Part shown: one piece after another, positions 2,989-34,042 of the stretch
Layout of the letters: each line of letters starts with the position of its first letter
Numbering within the stretch: the stretch's first letter is position 1
IMG/VR virus record: IMGVR_UViG_3300031774_000050
Span: 1 to 40,117 of that record
Reading direction: 5' to 3' (one strand)
DNA from: a virus
DNA: 40,117 nucleotides
Program-made: the position numbers and the translations under genes
Notes under the pieces: model-generated
The model's database searches: none
What the model was told of the DNA's origin: nothing
The model's input: only the letters and a program-made list of their open reading frames with translations

Positions 2989-3948
2989 ATGCCACAACCA
3001 ACCCAAACCGATGTTCATATTGACGCAATCCTAACCAATATGAGCATTGCCTACACACAAGAGGCTTACGCTTTTGTCGCTGGAAAAGTTTTCCCAAACG
3101 TTCCAGTTCAGAAACAAAGCGACAAGTTCTTCACATACACACAAGCTGATTTCTTTCGAGATCAAGTAGAGCTTCGTGCCGATGGTACAGAGTCAGCAGG
3201 AACCGGCTACGGCTTGTCCACAGACACTTACTCAGCACTTGTCTACGCATTGCACAAAGACATCGGCGATCAAGTAAGGGCTAACAGCGATGCTCCATTG
3301 TCACCTGACATGGACGCTACTCGCTTCCTTACTCAACAAATGTTGATCCGTCAAGAAATTGATTGGGCAACAAATTACTTTGCTACTTCTGTATGGGGAA
3401 CCGACAGCACGCCATCAACACTTTGGAGTGCGGCTTCAGGTTCAACACCTATTGCAGACGTTCAAGCAGGCATCAACACAGTTCTATCGAATACCGGCTA
3501 CAAGCCAAATACTTTAGTTATGAGCTACAAAGTATTTAGTATTCTCAAGAACCACGCTGACATTATCGACCGATACAAGTACACAAGCAGTTCTTCAATC
3601 ACTGAAGAATTACTCGCTCAAGTACTAGGTGTCGATCGTGTCCTCGTAATGGCAGGCATCAAGAACACCGCTGCTGAAGGAGCATCTGCTTCCTACAGTC
3701 AAATAGGTGACCGTGATGCTTTGCTTTGCTACACGGCTCCCAATGCGGGAATCATGGCTCCTAGCGCTGGCTACAACTTCTCATGGACAGGGCTTGCCCA
3801 ATCCGGAGGAATCGGAACCAACACAGCTATCAGTCGTTTCCGTATGGACGCTAATCGAGCAGACAGAATTGAAATTGAATCCGCATGGGATTTCAAAGTC
3901 ATTTCTTCAGCTCTTGGATACTTCTTTAGTAACCCAGTAGCAGCCTGA
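2989..3948 (+). CDS. Major capsid protein (HK97 fold)
   Basis: A 319-residue protein with the expected length and layout of HK97-fold capsid proteins of the GpE-like group: an N-terminal arm, an extended loop region rich in Thr/Ser (around TESAGTGYGLSTDTY), a P domain with the helix containing NTLVMSYKVFSILKNHADI, and a C-terminal segment that ends with a run of small and aromatic residues. AGGAG lies just before the ATG. The hairpin at 4004-4027 downstream may trim expression of the connector genes. Together with the decoration protein it would form the virion shell. Confidence 0.9.
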   Translation: MPQPTQTDVHIDAILTNMSIAYTQEAYAFVAGKVFPNVPVQKQSDKFFTYTQADFFRDQVELRADGTESAGTGYGLSTDTYSALVYALHKDIGDQVRANSDAPLSPDMDATRFLTQQMLIRQEIDWATNYFATSVWGTDSTPSTLWSAASGSTPIADVQAGINTVLSNTGYKPNTLVMSYKVFSILKNHADIIDRYKYTSSSSITEELLAQVLGVDRVLVMAGIKNTAAEGASASYSQIGDRDALLCYTAPNAGIMAPSAGYNFSWTGLAQSGGIGTNTAISRFRMDANRADRIEIESAWDFKVISSALGYFFSNPVAA

Positions 3949-14073: not shown

Positions 14074-14105
14074 CCCTATCTCTAGGGCGCAATTTCGAGT
14101 AAGAT
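14074..14105 (+). promoter_or_regulatory. CCCTA-N4-TAGGG operator and -10 box (copy 3)
   Basis: Perfect palindrome CCCTA-TCTC-TAGGG at 14074-14087; -10 TAAGAT at 14100-14105, seven bases before ATG 14113. Drives the lysis operon as a leaderless transcript. Confidence 0.62.
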
Positions 14106-14112
14106 GTGCGGT

Positions 14113-14844
14113 ATGACTTTGCCTACAACGTCGAAATGGGTTAGGACCGATTTACTTCACCCGACCATGAAAGCACGTTTGCACGCTTTTCTAAACGAGG
14201 ATTCTCGTATCGCTGGCAAGGTCAAGATTGTTTCAGGCGTTAGATCTTACGCAGATCAGAAGCGCCTTTATGATGGTTGGGTACAAAGGAAAGCCGGTTT
14301 CAATCTCGCAGCTAATCCCGATCGAAAGTTCGGCAAATTGTTTCAAGGGTCTTGGCATATGCAGCAACCCTTTGACGGTTACGGACACGCTGTCGATTTA
14401 CGCATAACTGGCAGAGGTTTGTCGACCGTCGACGTTGCACGAATAGCGAAAGATTACGGAATCAAACAAACAGTTCTCAATCCTTTCGAATGGTGGCACT
14501 TTCAATGGCGAGACAGCAACGGAATTTTCCCAGCTCCTAACATGGGAGACGCTAAAACAGAAAAGCCGAAACAACAGAAGGCGAAGGTTGACCTCAAAGG
14601 AGTCGCTGCCGTCATTGCGAAACTAGGCGAACAAGTACAGCGTCAACCTTTGCGTAGAGGCAGTCGAAACTCAGCAGTCAAAGTGACACAACAACAACTC
14701 GCCAACAAAGGATTTCCTTGCGGCTACCCTGACGGAATCTTTGGAAGGAAAACAGCGTCTGCTGTTCGAAACTTTCAACGGTCGAAAGGATTAGTCGCTG
14801 ACGCAATAGTAGGACCAATGACATGGAAGGCATTAATGACATGA
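14113..14844 (+). CDS. Endolysin: VanY-like peptidase with peptidoglycan-binding domain
   Basis: 243 residues. The N-terminal 140 carry the D-Ala-D-Ala carboxypeptidase/L-Ala-D-Glu peptidase fold: VSGVRSYADQKRLYDGW, then HMQQPFDGYGHAVDLRI and FEWWHFQW, supplying the zinc-binding His, Asp and His. A basic linker follows, then a PG_binding_1 repeat (about 180-243: LRRGSRNSAVKVTQQQL..GYPDGIFGRKTASAVRNFQ). It would cut peptide cross-links of the host wall. I chose ATG 14113 over 14104 because the earlier ATG lies inside the -10 box. Its stop overlaps the holin start. Confidence 0.9.
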   Translation: MTLPTTSKWVRTDLLHPTMKARLHAFLNEDSRIAGKVKIVSGVRSYADQKRLYDGWVQRKAGFNLAANPDRKFGKLFQGSWHMQQPFDGYGHAVDLRITGRGLSTVDVARIAKDYGIKQTVLNPFEWWHFQWRDSNGIFPAPNMGDAKTEKPKQQKAKVDLKGVAAVIAKLGEQVQRQPLRRGSRNSAVKVTQQQLANKGFPCGYPDGIFGRKTASAVRNFQRSKGLVADAIVGPMTWKALMT

Positions 14845-15116
14845 GACTAAACAAAGATCAATTAATCGACATTCTCGAACGAGCAGTATTTACTTACGTC
14901 CAAACCTTTTTAGGTTTAATGACAGCATCGGGCATGGGAATCGACACAGGAGGCATCTCGACTTTGAAGATGGCTGCTTTGGGAGGCATACCTGCCGCCC
15001 TGTCTGTTATCAAAGGCGCAATTTGTGCGGGAGGTCCAATAGGTGACTCGACCGCCTCTGTGATGAAACAGAAACCAACGATCCTCGACGATGCAGAAGA
15101 ACAATTATACAACTAG
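14841..15116 (+). CDS. Holin
   Basis: 91 residues starting MRLNKDQLIDILERAVFTYVQTFLGLMTASG, with a first span at about 16-33 and a second at about 42-60 (LKMAALGGIPAALSVIKGAI), a Gly-rich hinge and a hydrophilic tail. This is the layout of the r1t/mycobacteriophage holin family. ATG overlaps the endolysin stop (ATGA). It would form membrane lesions that release the endolysin, which has no signal peptide. Confidence 0.82.
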   Translation: MRLNKDQLIDILERAVFTYVQTFLGLMTASGMGIDTGGISTLKMAALGGIPAALSVIKGAICAGGPIGDSTASVMKQKPTILDDAEEQLYN

Positions 15117-15123
15117 GAGCAAC

Positions 15124-15447
15124 ATGGCAGAAAACAATTTCCCACCTTTAAGCATTACTAATAATTCGAACGTCCACGCTGTTCGAACATTGCAAACTTT
15201 ACTTAATAATCACGGCGCTAATTTATACGCAGATGGTCGCTATGCAATAGGAACAGATCGAGCCGTTGCAGCTTTCCAACAATCGAAGAAACTCGATGTT
15301 GTCGGCTACGTCGACGAGAAAACATGGAAGGCATTATCGAAAGCGAAAGCATCGACAAAGAAGGCATCGACATCGACAAAGAAAGCCCCAGCTAAAAAGA
15401 AAGCTCCTGCAAAGAAAACAGCGGGAAAAGCCAAACCCAAGAAATAG
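15124..15447 (+). CDS. Peptidoglycan-binding protein with Lys/Ala-rich tail (zero-frame product)
   Basis: 107 residues: a PG_binding_1 domain (about 14-72: VHAVRTLQTLLNNHGANLYADG.., then TDRAVAAFQQSKKL and VDEKTWKAL) followed by a histone H1-like basic tail of KKA/PAKK repeats. AGGAG precedes the ATG by five bases. No signal peptide. The last codons contain the slippery heptamer G_GGA_AAA (15423-15429), after which the -1 frame continues into a WhiB domain, so part of the product is probably extended. Third gene of the lysis operon. Confidence 0.82.
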   Translation: MAENNFPPLSITNNSNVHAVRTLQTLLNNHGANLYADGRYAIGTDRAVAAFQQSKKLDVVGYVDEKTWKALSKAKASTKKASTSTKKAPAKKKAPAKKTAGKAKPKK

Positions 15448-15485
15448 ACGCTGATTGGTTTGCTAATGCGTCTTGCTTGGGTTTG
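15423..15485 (+). other. Predicted -1 ribosomal frameshift site (second in the genome)
   Basis: The heptamer GGGAAAA (15423-15429) lies in frame as G_GGA_AAA, identical to the site in the tail chaperone gene. Two bases later a perfect ten-base stem begins: CAAACCCAAG (15432-15441) with CTTGGGTTTG (15476-15485); the zero-frame stop (15445-15447) lies in the 34-base loop. A -1 slip gives a 179-residue protein ending in the complete WhiB domain. Confidence 0.6.
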
Positions 15486-15662
15486 CCAACACAATGGTTT
15501 TTCCCGAATAACAAATTGAAGAATCCTCCTGTCAATGTTTCGACAATTTGCAAAGGTTGTCTTGTTCAACAGCAATGCCTCGATTATTCAATTGCCAACA
15601 GCATCGAGTTTGGGATATGGGGAGGACTTCGAGAGAGTCATCGTCGTCGATTGATAAATTAA
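15429..15662 (+). CDS. WhiB-family Fe-S domain, probably reached by frameshift
   Basis: The frame encodes DADWFANASC-LGLPTQWFFP, then ICKGCLVQQQCLDYSI, then FGIWGGLRESHRRRLIN: all four cluster-binding cysteines, the W before the first Cys and the G[VI]WGG turn of WhiB proteins, ending with the usual basic tail. WhiB proteins bind a 4Fe-4S cluster and the housekeeping sigma factor. The frame opens at 15396 with no ATG, GTG or TTG before the first conserved Cys (the first TTG, 15477, follows it), so translation must enter by the -1 slip at 15429 or from a non-standard start such as ATA 15444. The domain itself is certain; the way it is expressed is inference. Confidence 0.85.
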   Translation, partial: SQTQEIDADWFANASCLGLPTQWFFPNNKLKNPPVNVSTICKGCLVQQQCLDYSIANSIEFGIWGGLRESHRRRLIN

Positions 15663-24658: not shown

Positions 24659-25280
24659 TTTCGACAAAGTTATTGGGTACTTTAATTGTGTTACGAAAGA
24701 GACGTTTGAATACAAAGGCACACATTACAAACCTAAGACCCTTCGAGTGTCGCCTGACGTTGTTCGAGGATTTACTTGCCCGAGTCATTGCGGGGGCTGT
24801 TGCCCCAAATTTAGTCTTGACTATGTGCCTGCCGACAGACCTAAACATCACGCAACAACGCCAAGGACTGTCATATTTAATGGAAAGGCGCATCTCATTT
24901 TCTCTGACTTGCAACAAGACAACAACAACCACCATTGCCGTAATTTGAACATGTCAGACGGAAGGTGTGGGATACATAAAGAACGACCGATGAGTTGCGA
25001 CTTCGAACTGTTGCGATTTATGACAACACAAGACAGCGACGCACCAAACAAACTCAACCAACAATTATTTACTCGAGGGTGGAATTTGTTGCGCATAGAT
25101 GGCGATAGAGGCGCATTGTGCGAAATGTTGCCTCCTGACGAAGACACGATCGACGACACAATCAGGCGACTTCGACGTTTGCAAGATTGGTCTAATCATT
25201 TCAATCTCGATACTAAAATCGACGACATCATCGAATGGATAAACGATGAAGAAAGAAGAAAGGAAGCGTTGATTGTATGA
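24639..25280 (+). CDS. YkgJ-type Cys-cluster protein inside the 7-deazaguanine operon
   Basis: 213 residues from GTG 24639. It has the YkgJ pattern: FTCPSHCGGCCPKFS (a C..C..CC knuckle), then NHHCRNLNMSDGRCGIHKERPMSCDFELL, where the RP..C end closes a likely metal or Fe-S cluster site. The C-terminal 90 residues are helical (DTIDDTIRRLRRLQDW..). The gene overlaps QueD by 20 bases and QueE by four, so it is made with both. YkgJ proteins have few known roles; here the place implies a part in making or tailoring the 7-deazaguanine base, or metal supply to QueE. Not assigned. Confidence 0.82.
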   Translation: MARYTDSFDKVIGYFNCVTKETFEYKGTHYKPKTLRVSPDVVRGFTCPSHCGGCCPKFSLDYVPADRPKHHATTPRTVIFNGKAHLIFSDLQQDNNNHHCRNLNMSDGRCGIHKERPMSCDFELLRFMTTQDSDAPNKLNQQLFTRGWNLLRIDGDRGALCEMLPPDEDTIDDTIRRLRRLQDWSNHFNLDTKIDDIIEWINDEERRKEALIV

Positions 25281-26029
25281 GCGACAACTTAATCATTTCA
25301 GAAATCTTCGGTCCCACAATTCAAGGAGAGGGACCATATGCGGGACACCCTTCGGTCTTTCTACGCCTAGGCAGATGCAACCTTGACTGCTCATGGTGTG
25401 ATACGCCTTACACTTGGGACTGGAAAGGAAAGAACGGCGTTGCATACGACCCTAAAGTCGAATTGATCGAAATGTCGATTGATGATGTAGCGCAAACGAT
25501 CGAAGAAATGACACCTATCCTTGCTTCGTCGAATATGCGCCTAGTCATCACAGGAGGCGAACCTTTAATCCAAAAGCAGAAACTCGAAACACTTATCCAC
25601 ACCTTGAGGACAACATCAGATTTGGGAGAAATATATATCGACATTGAAACGAACGGAACACAATCACCGCTCTTTGCCGACGATGTTTTCTATTGCGTCA
25701 GTCCGAAATTATCAGGATCAGGCGTTAGGTGGCGACCCTCATGGGATAAGAAAATGAAATTGTACGCTCAACGCTCATGGGAAGGATCAGCAGCCCTTAA
25801 GTTTGTCATAACCGAAGAACGTCACGACCACGAATTGGGAGAGGTAGAAGCTTTCGTTTCGAAATTCAATTTCTTTAGGAACATGGTTTACTTAATGCCC
25901 GAAGGTCAAACAAACGCCGAGTTAAATTCAAATCACGTTTCGAAAGTCGCTCAAAGCTGCATCGATTTAGGTTACACATATTCCGATCGCCTACATGTTC
26001 GACTTTGGGACGACAAGAGAGGAGTGTAA
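25277..26029 (+). CDS. queE: 7-carboxy-7-deazaguanine synthase QueE (radical SAM)
   Basis: 250 residues. [21 protein letters not shown] is the QueE start signature; the radical SAM cluster is C34-N-L-D-C38-S-W-C41, followed by [10 protein letters not shown]; then [14 protein letters not shown] and VSPKLSGSG. Uses SAM and a 4Fe-4S cluster to contract the pterin ring to CDG. It overlaps YkgJ by four bases and FolE by one (TAATG). Confidence 0.95.
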
Positions 26030-27120: not shown

Positions 27121-28440
27121 ATGACCGATCTAAATATCGAAGATTCAGTGGTTTCTCAATTGTTGACGCTAGAACCGTCGATATTCGAAACGTTATCAGA
27201 CGAGGAACAAAGGCAAGTAATGTGGGACTGGTCGTTATGGGCAAGACCTAAACAAGTCGCACCTGAAGGCGACTGGAGGATTTGGCTGATATTGGCAGGT
27301 CGAGGTTTCGGCAAGACACGTTCAGGAGCTGAATGGGTAAGGCACAAGATCGAAACCAATCAATGTCAAAGGGTTGCCTTGGTAGGCGCAACAGCCGCAG
27401 ACGTTCGAGACACAATGGTCGAAGGCGAGTCGGGACTACTTCGAATCTTCCCACCTGATAAACGACCACGCTATGAGCCGTCGAAACGTCGAATCAGTTT
27501 CCACAATGGCGCAATGGCAACAACATACTCAGCAGATGAACCTGATCGACTTCGAGGACCAAATCATGACCTCGCTTGGTGTGATGAAATAGCAGCATGG
27601 CGTTATCCCGACGCTTGGGACCAACTAATCTTCGGCTTGCGCATAGGCAACGATCCTCGACTTGTTGCAACGACAACACCTCGACCTACTCGACTCATCA
27701 GACAACTTGTCGAAAGGAAAGACGTTGCTGTCACGAAAGGCAGCACGTTCGAGAATGCAGCTAACCTCGCTCCTACATTCCTCGAAGAAGTCAAAGCACG
27801 TTATGAAGGAACACGATTAGGAAGGCAAGAACTTTACGCTGAAATACTCGATGATGTCGAAGGCGCATTATGGACAAGACAAATGATCGAAGATGCTCGA
27901 GTCAATAACATTCCCGAATTGACCAGAATCGTTGTAGGCGTAGACCCTGCAATAACCTCGAACGAATTTAGTGCTGAGACAGGCATCGTCGCTGTCGGTA
28001 TCGACGGTAACGGAATCGGTTATGTGCTTGATGATCGATCTCTACAAGGCACTCCTGTCGAATGGGCAAACGCCGCTATTGCTTTATATCATCGAACATC
28101 AGCAGACAGAATCGTTGTTGAATCAAATCAAGGCGGGGATATGGTCAGACACACATTACAAACAGTCGAGTCACAAGTGCCTATTAAAACAGTTCATGCA
28201 ACAAGAGGCAAACGTACCCGAGCGGAACCTGTGTCGGCGTTATATGAGCAAGGCAAGATTAAACATGTTGGGGCTTTCCCAACGCTCGAAGATCAGATGT
28301 GTTCATGGACACCTGAGTCAGCTTCGCCTGATCGACTCGACGCTTTAGTGTGGGCGATAACTGAATTGATGATAGGCAGCCAGTCGCCAATCGTCGTTCC
28401 TTTTTCTTCAACCCAAGCATCGCCATGGGAAATAAGTTAA
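27121..28440 (+). CDS. terL: Terminase large subunit
   Basis: 439 residues. Walker A AGRGFGKT (residues 59-66); Walker B and catalytic Glu in LAWCDEIAAW (about 151-160); coupling motif VATTTPRPT; nuclease domain with the first Asp in IVVGVDPAI, then VVESNQGGD and SPDRLDALVWA. This is the short ATPase-nuclease type also known as DNA-packaging protein gp17-like. It drives DNA into the prohead and cuts it. This gene is a good place to see the TCGA enrichment: 22 in bases 27121-27900. Confidence 0.94.
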   Translation: MTDLNIEDSVVSQLLTLEPSIFETLSDEEQRQVMWDWSLWARPKQVAPEGDWRIWLILAGRGFGKTRSGAEWVRHKIETNQCQRVALVGATAADVRDTMVEGESGLLRIFPPDKRPRYEPSKRRISFHNGAMATTYSADEPDRLRGPNHDLAWCDEIAAWRYPDAWDQLIFGLRIGNDPRLVATTTPRPTRLIRQLVERKDVAVTKGSTFENAANLAPTFLEEVKARYEGTRLGRQELYAEILDDVEGALWTRQMIEDARVNNIPELTRIVVGVDPAITSNEFSAETGIVAVGIDGNGIGYVLDDRSLQGTPVEWANAAIALYHRTSADRIVVESNQGGDMVRHTLQTVESQVPIKTVHATRGKRTRAEPVSALYEQGKIKHVGAFPTLEDQMCSWTPESASPDRLDALVWAITELMIGSQSPIVVPFSSTQASPWEIS

Positions 28441-28458
28441 TATCGAGGAGGGTGTGAT

Positions 28459-29766
28459 ATGTCAGATGAAATAGCGAAACAACGACCAACGGCGACCGAC
28501 TTTATGGAAATCGGTTCTTCGGGGCTTGTTCAATATGGAGGTCGTGTCGAAGAAGATTTCTTGCGTCAATTGCAAGGCAGGCGAGGTTACGCAATCTATC
28601 GAGAGATGGCTGAGAATCACCCAGTCATCGGAGGCATATTAACAGCGGTCGAAATGTTGTTCCGTTCCGTTGATTGGGCAGTCGAACCAAGCGACGCAGA
28701 CGACCAACGATCAATCGACGAAGCCGAATTTGTGGCGGAGTGCATGAACGACATGAGCATCACTTGGCAAGACACAGTTAACAACGTGCTATCGATGTTG
28801 ACCTACGGCTTCTGCTACAACGAAATCGTCTACAAACGTCGAGATGGGCATAAAGCAGATGGCGAGTCGTCATCATTCAGCGATCAACGTATTGGTTGGC
28901 GGAAGATGCCAGTGAGGTCACAGGACACAGTGTACGAGTGGAAGTTTGATGACAACGGCGGGATCGAAGGCATGACTCAAATGAATCCCATAGCGGGAAC
29001 CGGACCTGTGTTTATTCCTATCGAGAAATCTTTGTTGTTTCGAACATCGACAAAGTTAAACAATCCCAAAGGCAGAAGCGTTCTTCGAAGTTCGTACACA
29101 TCATGGTATTACCAGAAACGCATTCAACAGATCGAAGCAATCGGTATCGAGCGTGACTTGGCAGGATTGCCTGTCGCCTTTGTACCTCCTCAACTCCTTT
29201 CCGATAATGCAACAGCTCAAGAATCGGCTGCATTAACTGAGATTAAGAAAATCGTTCGAAACATACGACGAGATGAGCAAGAGGGGCTTGTGTTCCCGCT
29301 TGCCTACGATTACGAAACAGGACACAAAGCATTTGACATTCAACTTCTAAGCACAGGAGGTCGACGACAGTTCGACACCAACGCCATCATCAATCGATAC
29401 GACCAAAGGATCGCTATGTCGATTCTTGCCGACTTCATACTCTTAGGACATGAGAAGATCGGAACGCAGGCGCTAAGTGTTTCGAAGATCGAACTGTTCA
29501 TGGACACGATCGAGGCATGGCTGGCTTCCATCGCCGATGTGTTCAATCAATACGCAATTCCTCGCCTTATGAGATTGAACGGCATCACAGACGATCTCTT
29601 TCCTCATATCACATACACCGCTCCTCGAGATCCCGACATTGGCATCTTAGGCGATTACGTCAGCAAACTGACATCATCAGGCGCATTGTTGCCCGACAAT
29701 GACCTTTCCGACTATTTGCGCAATCTTGCGGGATTACCGACGGAAACAGCCGAAGAAGTCGAATAA
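28459..29766 (+). CDS. Portal protein (Mu gp29/DUF935 type)
   Basis: 435 residues. GYAIYREMAENHPVIGGILTAVEMLFRSVDWAVEPSD is the typical opening; TYGFCYNEIVYKRRDG and LLFRTSTKLNNPKGRSVLRSSY with WYYQKRIQQIEAIGIERDLAGLPV follow; the end holds ADFILLGHEK and the wing helices DTIEAWLASIADVFNQYAIPRL. Forms the dodecameric ring for DNA entry and connection to the neck. AGGAGG precedes the ATG. It pairs with the MuF-like gene next to it, as in Mu-type head modules. Confidence 0.92.
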   Translation: MSDEIAKQRPTATDFMEIGSSGLVQYGGRVEEDFLRQLQGRRGYAIYREMAENHPVIGGILTAVEMLFRSVDWAVEPSDADDQRSIDEAEFVAECMNDMSITWQDTVNNVLSMLTYGFCYNEIVYKRRDGHKADGESSSFSDQRIGWRKMPVRSQDTVYEWKFDDNGGIEGMTQMNPIAGTGPVFIPIEKSLLFRTSTKLNNPKGRSVLRSSYTSWYYQKRIQQIEAIGIERDLAGLPVAFVPPQLLSDNATAQESAALTEIKKIVRNIRRDEQEGLVFPLAYDYETGHKAFDIQLLSTGGRRQFDTNAIINRYDQRIAMSILADFILLGHEKIGTQALSVSKIELFMDTIEAWLASIADVFNQYAIPRLMRLNGITDDLFPHITYTAPRDPDIGILGDYVSKLTSSGALLPDNDLSDYLRNLAGLPTETAEEVE

Positions 29767-29783
29767 TGGGCAATTTGCACCCA

Positions 29784-29800
29784 CAGAGATCGATTTTAAG
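29784..29800 (-). promoter_or_regulatory. ATCGATCTCTG element (site G)
   Basis: CAGAGATCGATTTTAAG on the plus strand (minus-strand form CTTAAAATCGATCTCTG), in the 56-base gap between portal and MuF genes, followed downstream by the AGGAG of the MuF gene. Confidence 0.7.
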
Positions 29801-29822
29801 ACGTTTATAGGAGTAGCCCCCT

Positions 29823-31070
29823 ATGATTATGCGTTCTAACAAAGTGCCGGTCAGATGGGCGCAGAAATCTCGCCTTGATAATCAATTGCCTAGATTCCGA
29901 CCGACTGATTCTGATTATTTGGACAAACAAGAACGGAAAATCAGCGACGCATTAATCGACGGCATCGAACAAATCCCAAAGTCGATTAGTCGAGAGATAA
30001 TCTTCGGCAACCTTAATGAAACAACAGCCAAGATGAACTTAATGGAATTATTCATTCCCGAAATTGAACGAGCAGCAAAAGCAATCTTCGCTGTGTATGT
30101 CGAAGGAGTTCGAGATGGTGCTAAGGAAGTTCGAAACGACCTCAACGATGAACTAAAGAGATTACGTTCAAACGCTCGCCTTCGAAGCGTCGATGATGTC
30201 GACAAAGCATTTGACTTACTGATATGGGAACCTTTCGATTGGTCGGCGACTGTCGATCCTTTAGATTTGTTTAATGCACAACCCGACAACATGGCAGGCA
30301 AGGCATACGCAAGGACAAGAGCAACAGATTTATTCTCATCGATCAGCGACGACGTACAGGCGAACATTGCAACAATGATCTCAGAAGGGTTTACAGCTCA
30401 ACAAGCATTCTCGACAGGTCGACAAGTAACAGGATTAACGACGCAACAAACCGCTCGTCGATTGTTCGACATATTGCAACAAGCATCTCCTGTGCCAATA
30501 ACAGGCGCAGATTACGCCAATCAGATTGTGCCTCACACCAATGGGTTGTTCCCACGATGGGCAAAGGCAGTCGATCGAAGCATGAATGCCTACGCTCATC
30601 GATTAGCAGAGCAAGGAATCGACCCCAAAGAGATTATTCGAAGGACCGACAATCATGGGCAACGATACGGAAACAAATTACGACGAGCAAGAGCAAGAAT
30701 GATTGCACGAACAGAAACGATAGCGGCAAGGAATCAAGCGAAACTCGATACTATGTTAAGAGCGCAACAGATGGGACTTGTTGGTCCCGCAACAGTCAAA
30801 CAATGGGTAATAGGACCGACCGATGTTTGTGAGATATGCGTTCCGATGGGAGGCGAAACGATGCCTTTGGGAATGTCGTTTGATTGGGGAACAGGAGGAG
30901 GCGATTATCCTCCCGCACACCCTAGTTGCCGTTGCACGATTCAAATGGTTCCGAACCTCGACAAAGCCCCGACGCAACAAGGAGCAGGGACTTTAGAAGA
31001 TCCGTTTCGATATCAATTCCACGATGGCGCAACGATCACAATGGCAAGCGGCAATCTTCCAATAACGTAA
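29823..31070 (+). CDS. MuF-like head morphogenesis protein
   Basis: 415 residues with the MuF domain in the second half: AYARTRATDLFSSISDDVQANI, then ARMIARTETIAARNQA, then TDVCEICVPMGGE and PPAHPSCRCTIQMVP, the characteristic C..C ... HP.CRC end. It also has a helical N-terminal region (about 30-130). MuF proteins bind the portal and can be packaged with the DNA. ATG 29823 is preferred (AGGAG); 29829 is an alternative. The last 40 residues (LEDPFRYQFHDGATITM) extend beyond the family core and have no match I know. Confidence 0.88.
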   Translation: MIMRSNKVPVRWAQKSRLDNQLPRFRPTDSDYLDKQERKISDALIDGIEQIPKSISREIIFGNLNETTAKMNLMELFIPEIERAAKAIFAVYVEGVRDGAKEVRNDLNDELKRLRSNARLRSVDDVDKAFDLLIWEPFDWSATVDPLDLFNAQPDNMAGKAYARTRATDLFSSISDDVQANIATMISEGFTAQQAFSTGRQVTGLTTQQTARRLFDILQQASPVPITGADYANQIVPHTNGLFPRWAKAVDRSMNAYAHRLAEQGIDPKEIIRRTDNHGQRYGNKLRRARARMIARTETIAARNQAKLDTMLRAQQMGLVGPATVKQWVIGPTDVCEICVPMGGETMPLGMSFDWGTGGGDYPPAHPSCRCTIQMVPNLDKAPTQQGAGTLEDPFRYQFHDGATITMASGNLPIT

Positions 31071-33682: not shown

Positions 33683-34042
33683 ATGGTGGCACGATTAGCA
33701 GATAAGATTAGACAAAGCGACGACATGATTTCTGAGATAATCGACGTTCCCGAGTGGGACGTTAAATTGTCGATACGATCAATGACTGGAAACCAGCGTG
33801 CAAACATGCAAACCGAGTGGGCGGATAATGAATCCATGCAAACGGCAAGCATGTTGTACAAGTCAATCATTCAAATATGTTGTTTCGATCCCGACACAGG
33901 AGAGCAGGTCTTTACCGAAGACGATATTGAGTGGTTGTTTGATGAAAAGCAAGCAGGCATTATCGAACAAGTAGGAACTGAGTGTTTGCGTGTTTCGGGA
34001 TTGTCAGGAAACGCTGTTGATGAAGCGGGAAAAGATTCCTAG
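33683..34042 (+). CDS. Tail assembly chaperone, zero-frame product (gpG type)
   Basis: 119 residues. Starts MVARLADKIRQSDDMISEII, then VPEWDVKLSIRSMTGNQRANM, a beta-rich first half typical of gpG-like chaperones, and a helical second half (DDIEWLFDEKQAGIIEQ). It sits between the tail tube and tape measure genes, as usual. Close to its stop lies the slippery site at 34027, through which part of the ribosomes would make the longer GT product. Chaperones of this kind coat the tape measure before tube assembly. Confidence 0.88.
   Translation: MVARLADKIRQSDDMISEIIDVPEWDVKLSIRSMTGNQRANMQTEWADNESMQTASMLYKSIIQICCFDPDTGEQVFTEDDIEWLFDEKQAGIIEQVGTECLRVSGLSGNAVDEAGKDS

Follow-up and report, generated by a model that had tools for sequence, protein, structure and literature searches.

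How does a phage make a WhiB domain whose reading frame has no start codon of its own? The question is raised by a locus in the 40,117-nucleotide stretch of viral DNA analysed here (the window; IMG/VR virus record IMGVR_UViG_3300031774_000050, positions 1-40,117), where a WhiB frame overlaps, in the -1 register, the end of a gene for a putative peptidoglycan (PG)-binding protein. Our answer is that a conserved programmed -1 ribosomal frameshift very likely adds the WhiB domain to the wall-binding protein, a conclusion inferred from sequence alone and without protein or ribosome-profiling evidence. The features concerned are listed in Table 1.

Table 1. Coordinates of the PG/WhiB locus and of the tail assembly chaperone gene in the window
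Feature	Position	Strand	Evidence or remark
Endolysin, VanY-like peptidase part and PG_binding_1	14104..14844	+	Pfam PG_binding_1 57 bits; PHROG endolysin 3e-25
Holin, r1t-like	14823..15116	+	PHROG holin 8e-9; Pfam Phage_r1t_holin 25 bits, just under the cut-off of 26.9
0-frame gene, PG_binding_1 (residues 19-71) and Lys/Ala/Pro-rich tail	15124..15447	+	Pfam PG_binding_1 44 bits, cut-off 23; homologues with and without WhiB
Slippery heptamer G_GGA_AAA, X_XXY_YYZ phase of the PG gene	15423..15429	+	
-1 frame part of the predicted fusion, 77 codons and stop, WhiB domain	15429..15662	+	Pfam Whib 2.7e-16; solved WhiB chains 6e-19 to 7e-8
Hairpin, perfect 10-bp outer stem (15432-15441 with 15476-15485)	15432..15485	+	Possible stimulator
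0-frame stop TAG of the PG gene	15445..15447	+	Overlaps the WhiB-frame ATA (15444-15446)
Tail assembly chaperone gene	33683..34042	+	
Tail chaperone heptamer G_GGA_AAA	34027..34033	+	13 nt before stop

The lysis cassette of the window runs from endolysin through holin to the PG_binding_1/Lys-tail gene, whose 0-frame product has 107 aa (11.5 kDa, pI 10.3). Peptidoglycan binding by its PG_binding_1 domain (PF01471) is inferred from sequence alone, from a Pfam match above the cut-off, and there are no binding data. The WhiB frame is open from 15396 to 15662 and, as the initial annotation had claimed, contains no ATG, GTG or TTG before its first cluster Cys codon (15474-15476); the sole near-cognate start is the ATA at 15444, which overlaps the PG stop. 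The same annotation had placed a G_GGA_AAA heptamer in the right frame at the end of the PG gene, identical to that of the tail assembly chaperone, and had predicted that a slip there yields an uninterrupted 179-residue protein. Both statements held: a -1 slip gives exactly 179 residues (19.7 kDa) in the order PG-Lys-WhiB, with the predicted peptide ...TAGKSQTQEIDADWFANASC... across the junction. The chaperone gene itself has a 65-codon -1 extension, a classical frameshift. Across the window, 5 of the 180 stop-to-stop frames of at least 70 codons have both an in-frame heptamer late in the frame and a -1 extension of at least 40 codons. Two of these five are recognisable genes, the tail chaperone and the PG/WhiB gene; of the other three, one lies within the endolysin gene and two are on the minus strand, where they overlap genes of the plus strand.

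The WhiB domain of the window is complete, with four Cys and GIWGG, and scores 60.3 bits against Pfam Whib (PF02467; cut-off 23.6). The four Cys and WGG are invariant among five aligned WhiB sequences, and the nearest solved relatives are WhiB regulators (8dy7/8dy9 best at 6e-19, then WhiB1, WhiB3 and WhiB4). From this similarity to solved chains and from family knowledge, we infer that the domain binds an Fe-S cluster and a sigma factor. No second WhiB turned up in the window, nor any besides the PG-linked one in G009, G040, G041 and G042, although these records may be fragments. Phages with related portals (G017, G018 and G019) also carry WhiB, which in G018 lies ~9 kb from the PG-domain match. 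In phage records, WhiB relatives were found only as distant matches in mycobacteriophages and Gordonia phages (a PG partner was not sought there), and neither a DNA search around the locus nor tblastn with the PG protein returned a match in those records. Bacterial genome contigs contained ordinary WhiB genes, with starts.

To look beyond a single record, we scanned viral contigs with WhiB, PG, portal and endolysin sequences and also searched the records behind the matches, finding the same PG-WhiB pair in eleven further distinct viral sequences. Including the window, these make up ten lineages (window, L095, L015/L016, L014, L147, L146, L149, L145/L142, L150 and L311). L149 and L309, which carries the PG gene, are the two ends of one contig (IMGVR_UViG_3300030372_002192); because the PG/WhiB gene is split across the contig ends, this genome is suggested to be circular or circularly permuted. 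The WhiB frame is -1 relative to the PG gene in 10/10 lineages, and no in-frame PG-WhiB fusion was seen. A start codon lies within 40 codons of the first cluster Cys in every one of 154 other distinct WhiB frames from viruses and bacteria, but in none of the 12 linked sequences. L147 and L311 are without even a near-cognate start for WhiB, and in L145/L142 and L150 ordinary starts occur only at least 135 nt before the Cys, within the PG coding sequence. The relation of the frames and the missing WhiB start, with the conservation of each, are thus shown by the sequences themselves, and so is the heptamer described below. The viruses with the pair are aquatic, mostly marine-looking, and their hosts are probably actinobacteria, a likely assignment that rests only on the WhiB family. 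A WhiB tree of 69 columns was unresolved and neither established nor excluded that the linkage arose once; the two close pairs differ by 3 synonymous/3 nonsynonymous and 3 synonymous/1 nonsynonymous changes, too few to gauge selection on the WhiB frame.

An in-frame canonical X_XXY_YYZ heptamer stands ahead of WhiB in all ten lineages: GGGAAAA in the window, L095, L147, L145/L142 and L311; CCCAAAA in L015/L016, L146, L149/L309 and L150; and AAAAAAA in L014 only. The distance from heptamer to 0-frame stop is 13-25 nt in nine lineages and 76 nt in L150. The residues encoded at the site vary (S/A-G-K or S/A-P-K), and the wobble base of the preceding codon tracks the Gly/Pro swap, with TCG/GCG before GGA AAA and TCC/GCC before CCA AAA. 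Because the swaps are matched by that wobble base, it is the nucleotides, not the residues, that are conserved. With the protein sequence fixed and codon usage pooled, synonymous resampling gave a G/C-type heptamer with a probability of 0.09-0.27 per lineage, for a product of ~10^-6.3 over the eight tested lineages with a G/C-type heptamer (L311, found later, was left out). This product overstates the case because related lineages are treated as independent. In the same kind of resampling, chance alone would give 58-96% of tails a canonical heptamer of one type or another. Since the tails are A-rich and this chance is high, the weight of the evidence rests on the G/C-type sites and on the unlinked controls, and the A_AAA_AAA of L014 alone is weak evidence. 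An AGAAGG-like, weakly Shine-Dalgarno-like sequence lies a few bases before the heptamer in L095, L015/L016, L145/L142 and L311; it could be a stimulator, or merely Lys codons.

A natural control is provided by nine homologous PG/Lys-tail genes in related lysis cassettes without WhiB downstream (L017, L018, L222, L223, L225, L317, L319, L322 and L327). The in-frame heptamer is present in 11/11 WhiB-linked PG genes and in 0/9 unlinked ones, for which the last 35 codons were compared (Fisher p=6e-6); L309 was counted as linked because the other end of its contig carries the L149 WhiB. With near-copies collapsed, the comparison is of 10 linked with 6 unlinked genes (p=1.2e-4). Homologues with a single frame, or with a WhiB start of their own and no conserved heptamer, had been named at the outset as the case that would refute a frameshift; all ten lineages showed the opposite, keeping the frame arrangement, the absence of a WhiB start and the heptamer, which the homologues without WhiB lack. 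We infer an ancestral lysis cassette with the PG/Lys-tail gene alone, behind which WhiB joined in the -1 frame, the slip site arising with WhiB. The protein with PG_binding_1 and a PAKK tail is a recurrent lysis-cassette gene in its own right, often beside endolysin and holin.

RNA structure downstream of the heptamer is less uniform. The perfect ten-base stem that the initial annotation had reported two bases after the heptamer is present in the window, where the inverted repeat closes a longer hairpin with a folding energy of about -27 to -30 kcal/mol and a z of about -3.9, but it is not conserved among relatives. Strong hairpins 3' of the heptamer were found in the window, L014 and L145/L142 and a weaker one in L015/L016, and no significant hairpin was found there in L095, L147, L146, L150 or L311. 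RNAalifold returned no consensus structure among the relatives (pseudoknots were outside the test), and a conserved RNA stem is not supported. The short slip-to-stem spacer, already named as a weak point, stands: at only 2 nt in the window, it remains a caveat on the frameshift. The window stem may help locally; it does not define the system.

Other ways of arriving at this arrangement were weighed against the frameshift. WhiB could be a separate gene, translated without frameshifting by ribosomes that terminate at the PG stop and reinitiate at the overlapping ATA (ATAG). In favour of this, the overlap occurs in the window, L014, L146 and L149, with the WhiB domain starting just after. However, the remaining lineages have GTA at that place, L147 and L311 offer no near-cognate start at all, and the ATA is merely AAA TAG read in the -1 frame. 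Nor would an ATA start explain why linked PG genes have heptamers and unlinked ones have none. We rejected it as a general explanation, for it is absent in most lineages, and regard it as very unlikely. Also very unlikely is that the fusion arises by transcriptional slippage, with RNA polymerase rather than the ribosome stuttering. Long A runs are known to cause slippage in bacteria, as in dnaX of Thermus (PMC5009743), and the L014 site is a run of seven A; the other nine lineages, however, have three G or C followed by four A, which is too short for efficient polymerase slippage and is exactly the ribosomal tandem-slip pattern. One contig alone could not have excluded an indel from assembly or sequencing, or a frameshifted gene left over in decay, and assembly error had been named as a weak point from the start. 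Independent assemblies rule this out: 12 distinct sequences, representing ten lineages, share the -1 register and have intact WhiB domains. Frameshifting is the only evident way to make this WhiB.

Under the frameshift model, most ribosomes would terminate at the TAG of the PG gene, and their product would be a small and strongly basic wall-binding protein composed of PG_binding_1 and a PAKK-type tail. A minority would slip at G_GGA_AAA, drop the last five tail residues and read 77 further codons to give the 179-aa PG-Lys-WhiB, so that frameshifting would set a small dose of WhiB, made late and from the lysis mRNA. Slippage itself and its rate are inferred. The proposal that the phage makes two products in a fixed ratio is supported in its frameshift interpretation, and neither the slip nor a fixed ratio has been shown. 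As for what the longer product does, the likeliest reading, inferred and not shown, is that the WhiB domain carries an Fe-S cluster and binds the principal sigma factor of the host, competing with or mimicking a host WhiB/WhiB2-type cell-division regulator; the Lys-rich tail may add affinity for DNA or acidic wall polymers; and late in infection the fusion would then disturb transcription or division of the host, an effect reported for the TM4 WhiB. The redox or transcription role given to this module in the initial annotation is likewise inferred and not shown. We hold the sigma-factor role, which comes from family knowledge, with slightly less than even confidence.

The main functional rival, which we consider less likely, is that the fusion acts at the envelope and not on transcription. 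In that case the WhiB domain, or the redox-sensitive cluster in it, would tune a lysis accessory protein, for instance in how it folds, when it acts or how it is released. This possibility draws support from the place of the gene in the lysis cassette, after endolysin and holin, from its N-terminal PG_binding_1 domain, and from several unlinked homologues that likewise adjoin endolysin and holin genes. Against it, no signal or membrane segment is apparent (judged by eye only, without a predictor), and the nearest solved relatives of the WhiB domain are transcription regulators. Known WhiB proteins act in the cytosol via the sigma factor, which also speaks against an envelope role. A bolder reading, which we consider no more than possible, is that a dedicated -1 frameshift makes a two-headed regulator, with one wall-binding and one Fe-S/sigma-binding part. 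Such a regulator might couple the transcription or redox state of the host to lysis timing or to a block of host division, although this too is only a possibility. If this is true, programmed frameshifting and WhiB domains would be serving here in a way of which we found no description.

In tailed phages, the best-known cases of conserved -1 frameshifting are tail-chaperone and structural genes; the one predicted here concerns a lysis-cassette gene in ten lineages and would attach a transcription-factor domain to a wall-binding protein. The tail assembly chaperone frameshift, of the lambda G/GT type (Xu, Hendrix and Duda 2004, cited in PMC3203893), shares with the PG/WhiB gene an X_XXY_YYZ slip shortly before a late gene ends and a minor, C-terminally extended product. 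It differs in that the PG/WhiB gene encodes a PG-binding protein of the lysis cassette and its extension is an Fe-S transcription-factor domain. Frameshifted capsid and tail proteins with C-terminal extensions are known in T3, Lactobacillus A2 and Listeria A118/A500/PSA (PMC5009743). There, too, a domain is added to a fraction of an abundant phage protein, but the domains described are of a structural, Ig-like kind and not regulatory.

That phages carry WhiB genes is well established (PMC8612146); TM4 gp49/WhiBTM4 is a stand-alone example (PMC3203893, PMC3861242, PMC8612146) that is reported to inhibit WhiB2 (Rybniker 2010, cited in PMC3861242 and PMC3203893). Like it, the protein described here contains an actinophage WhiB domain with four Cys and G-I/V-WGG. 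The TM4-type gene has its own start codon, whereas the WhiB of the window has none and is predicted to be fused to a wall-binding domain by frameshifting. An Actinomarinales phage has WhiB joined to an ADP-ribosyltransferase-like domain (PMC7771536), another case of phage WhiB fused to a further domain in a marine actinobacterial phage; that case, however, is a gene fusion with a different partner domain, and no frameshift was reported. The initial annotation knew of no fusion of the present kind. In the open-access literature that we searched, we found no WhiB described as a frameshift product or as a fusion with a wall-binding domain, and searches combining WhiB with frameshift, PG-binding or fusion, and endolysin with frameshift, did not return this arrangement; most subscription papers were outside the search, and novelty is unproven. 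Gene callers that require a start codon will miss or mis-start PG-linked WhiB. The locus lends itself to testing whether phages set the dose of a regulator by frameshifting, and the unlinked homologues serve as natural controls.

Two further observations concern the window as a whole. The major head protein (2989-3948) is encoded far from the terminase, portal and head-morphogenesis genes (27121-31070) in the record as given, and for this reason the record may be permuted. At 25277-26029 the window encodes a QueE-like radical SAM protein (PHROG 1.4e-55), a possible sign of 7-deazaguanine metabolism.
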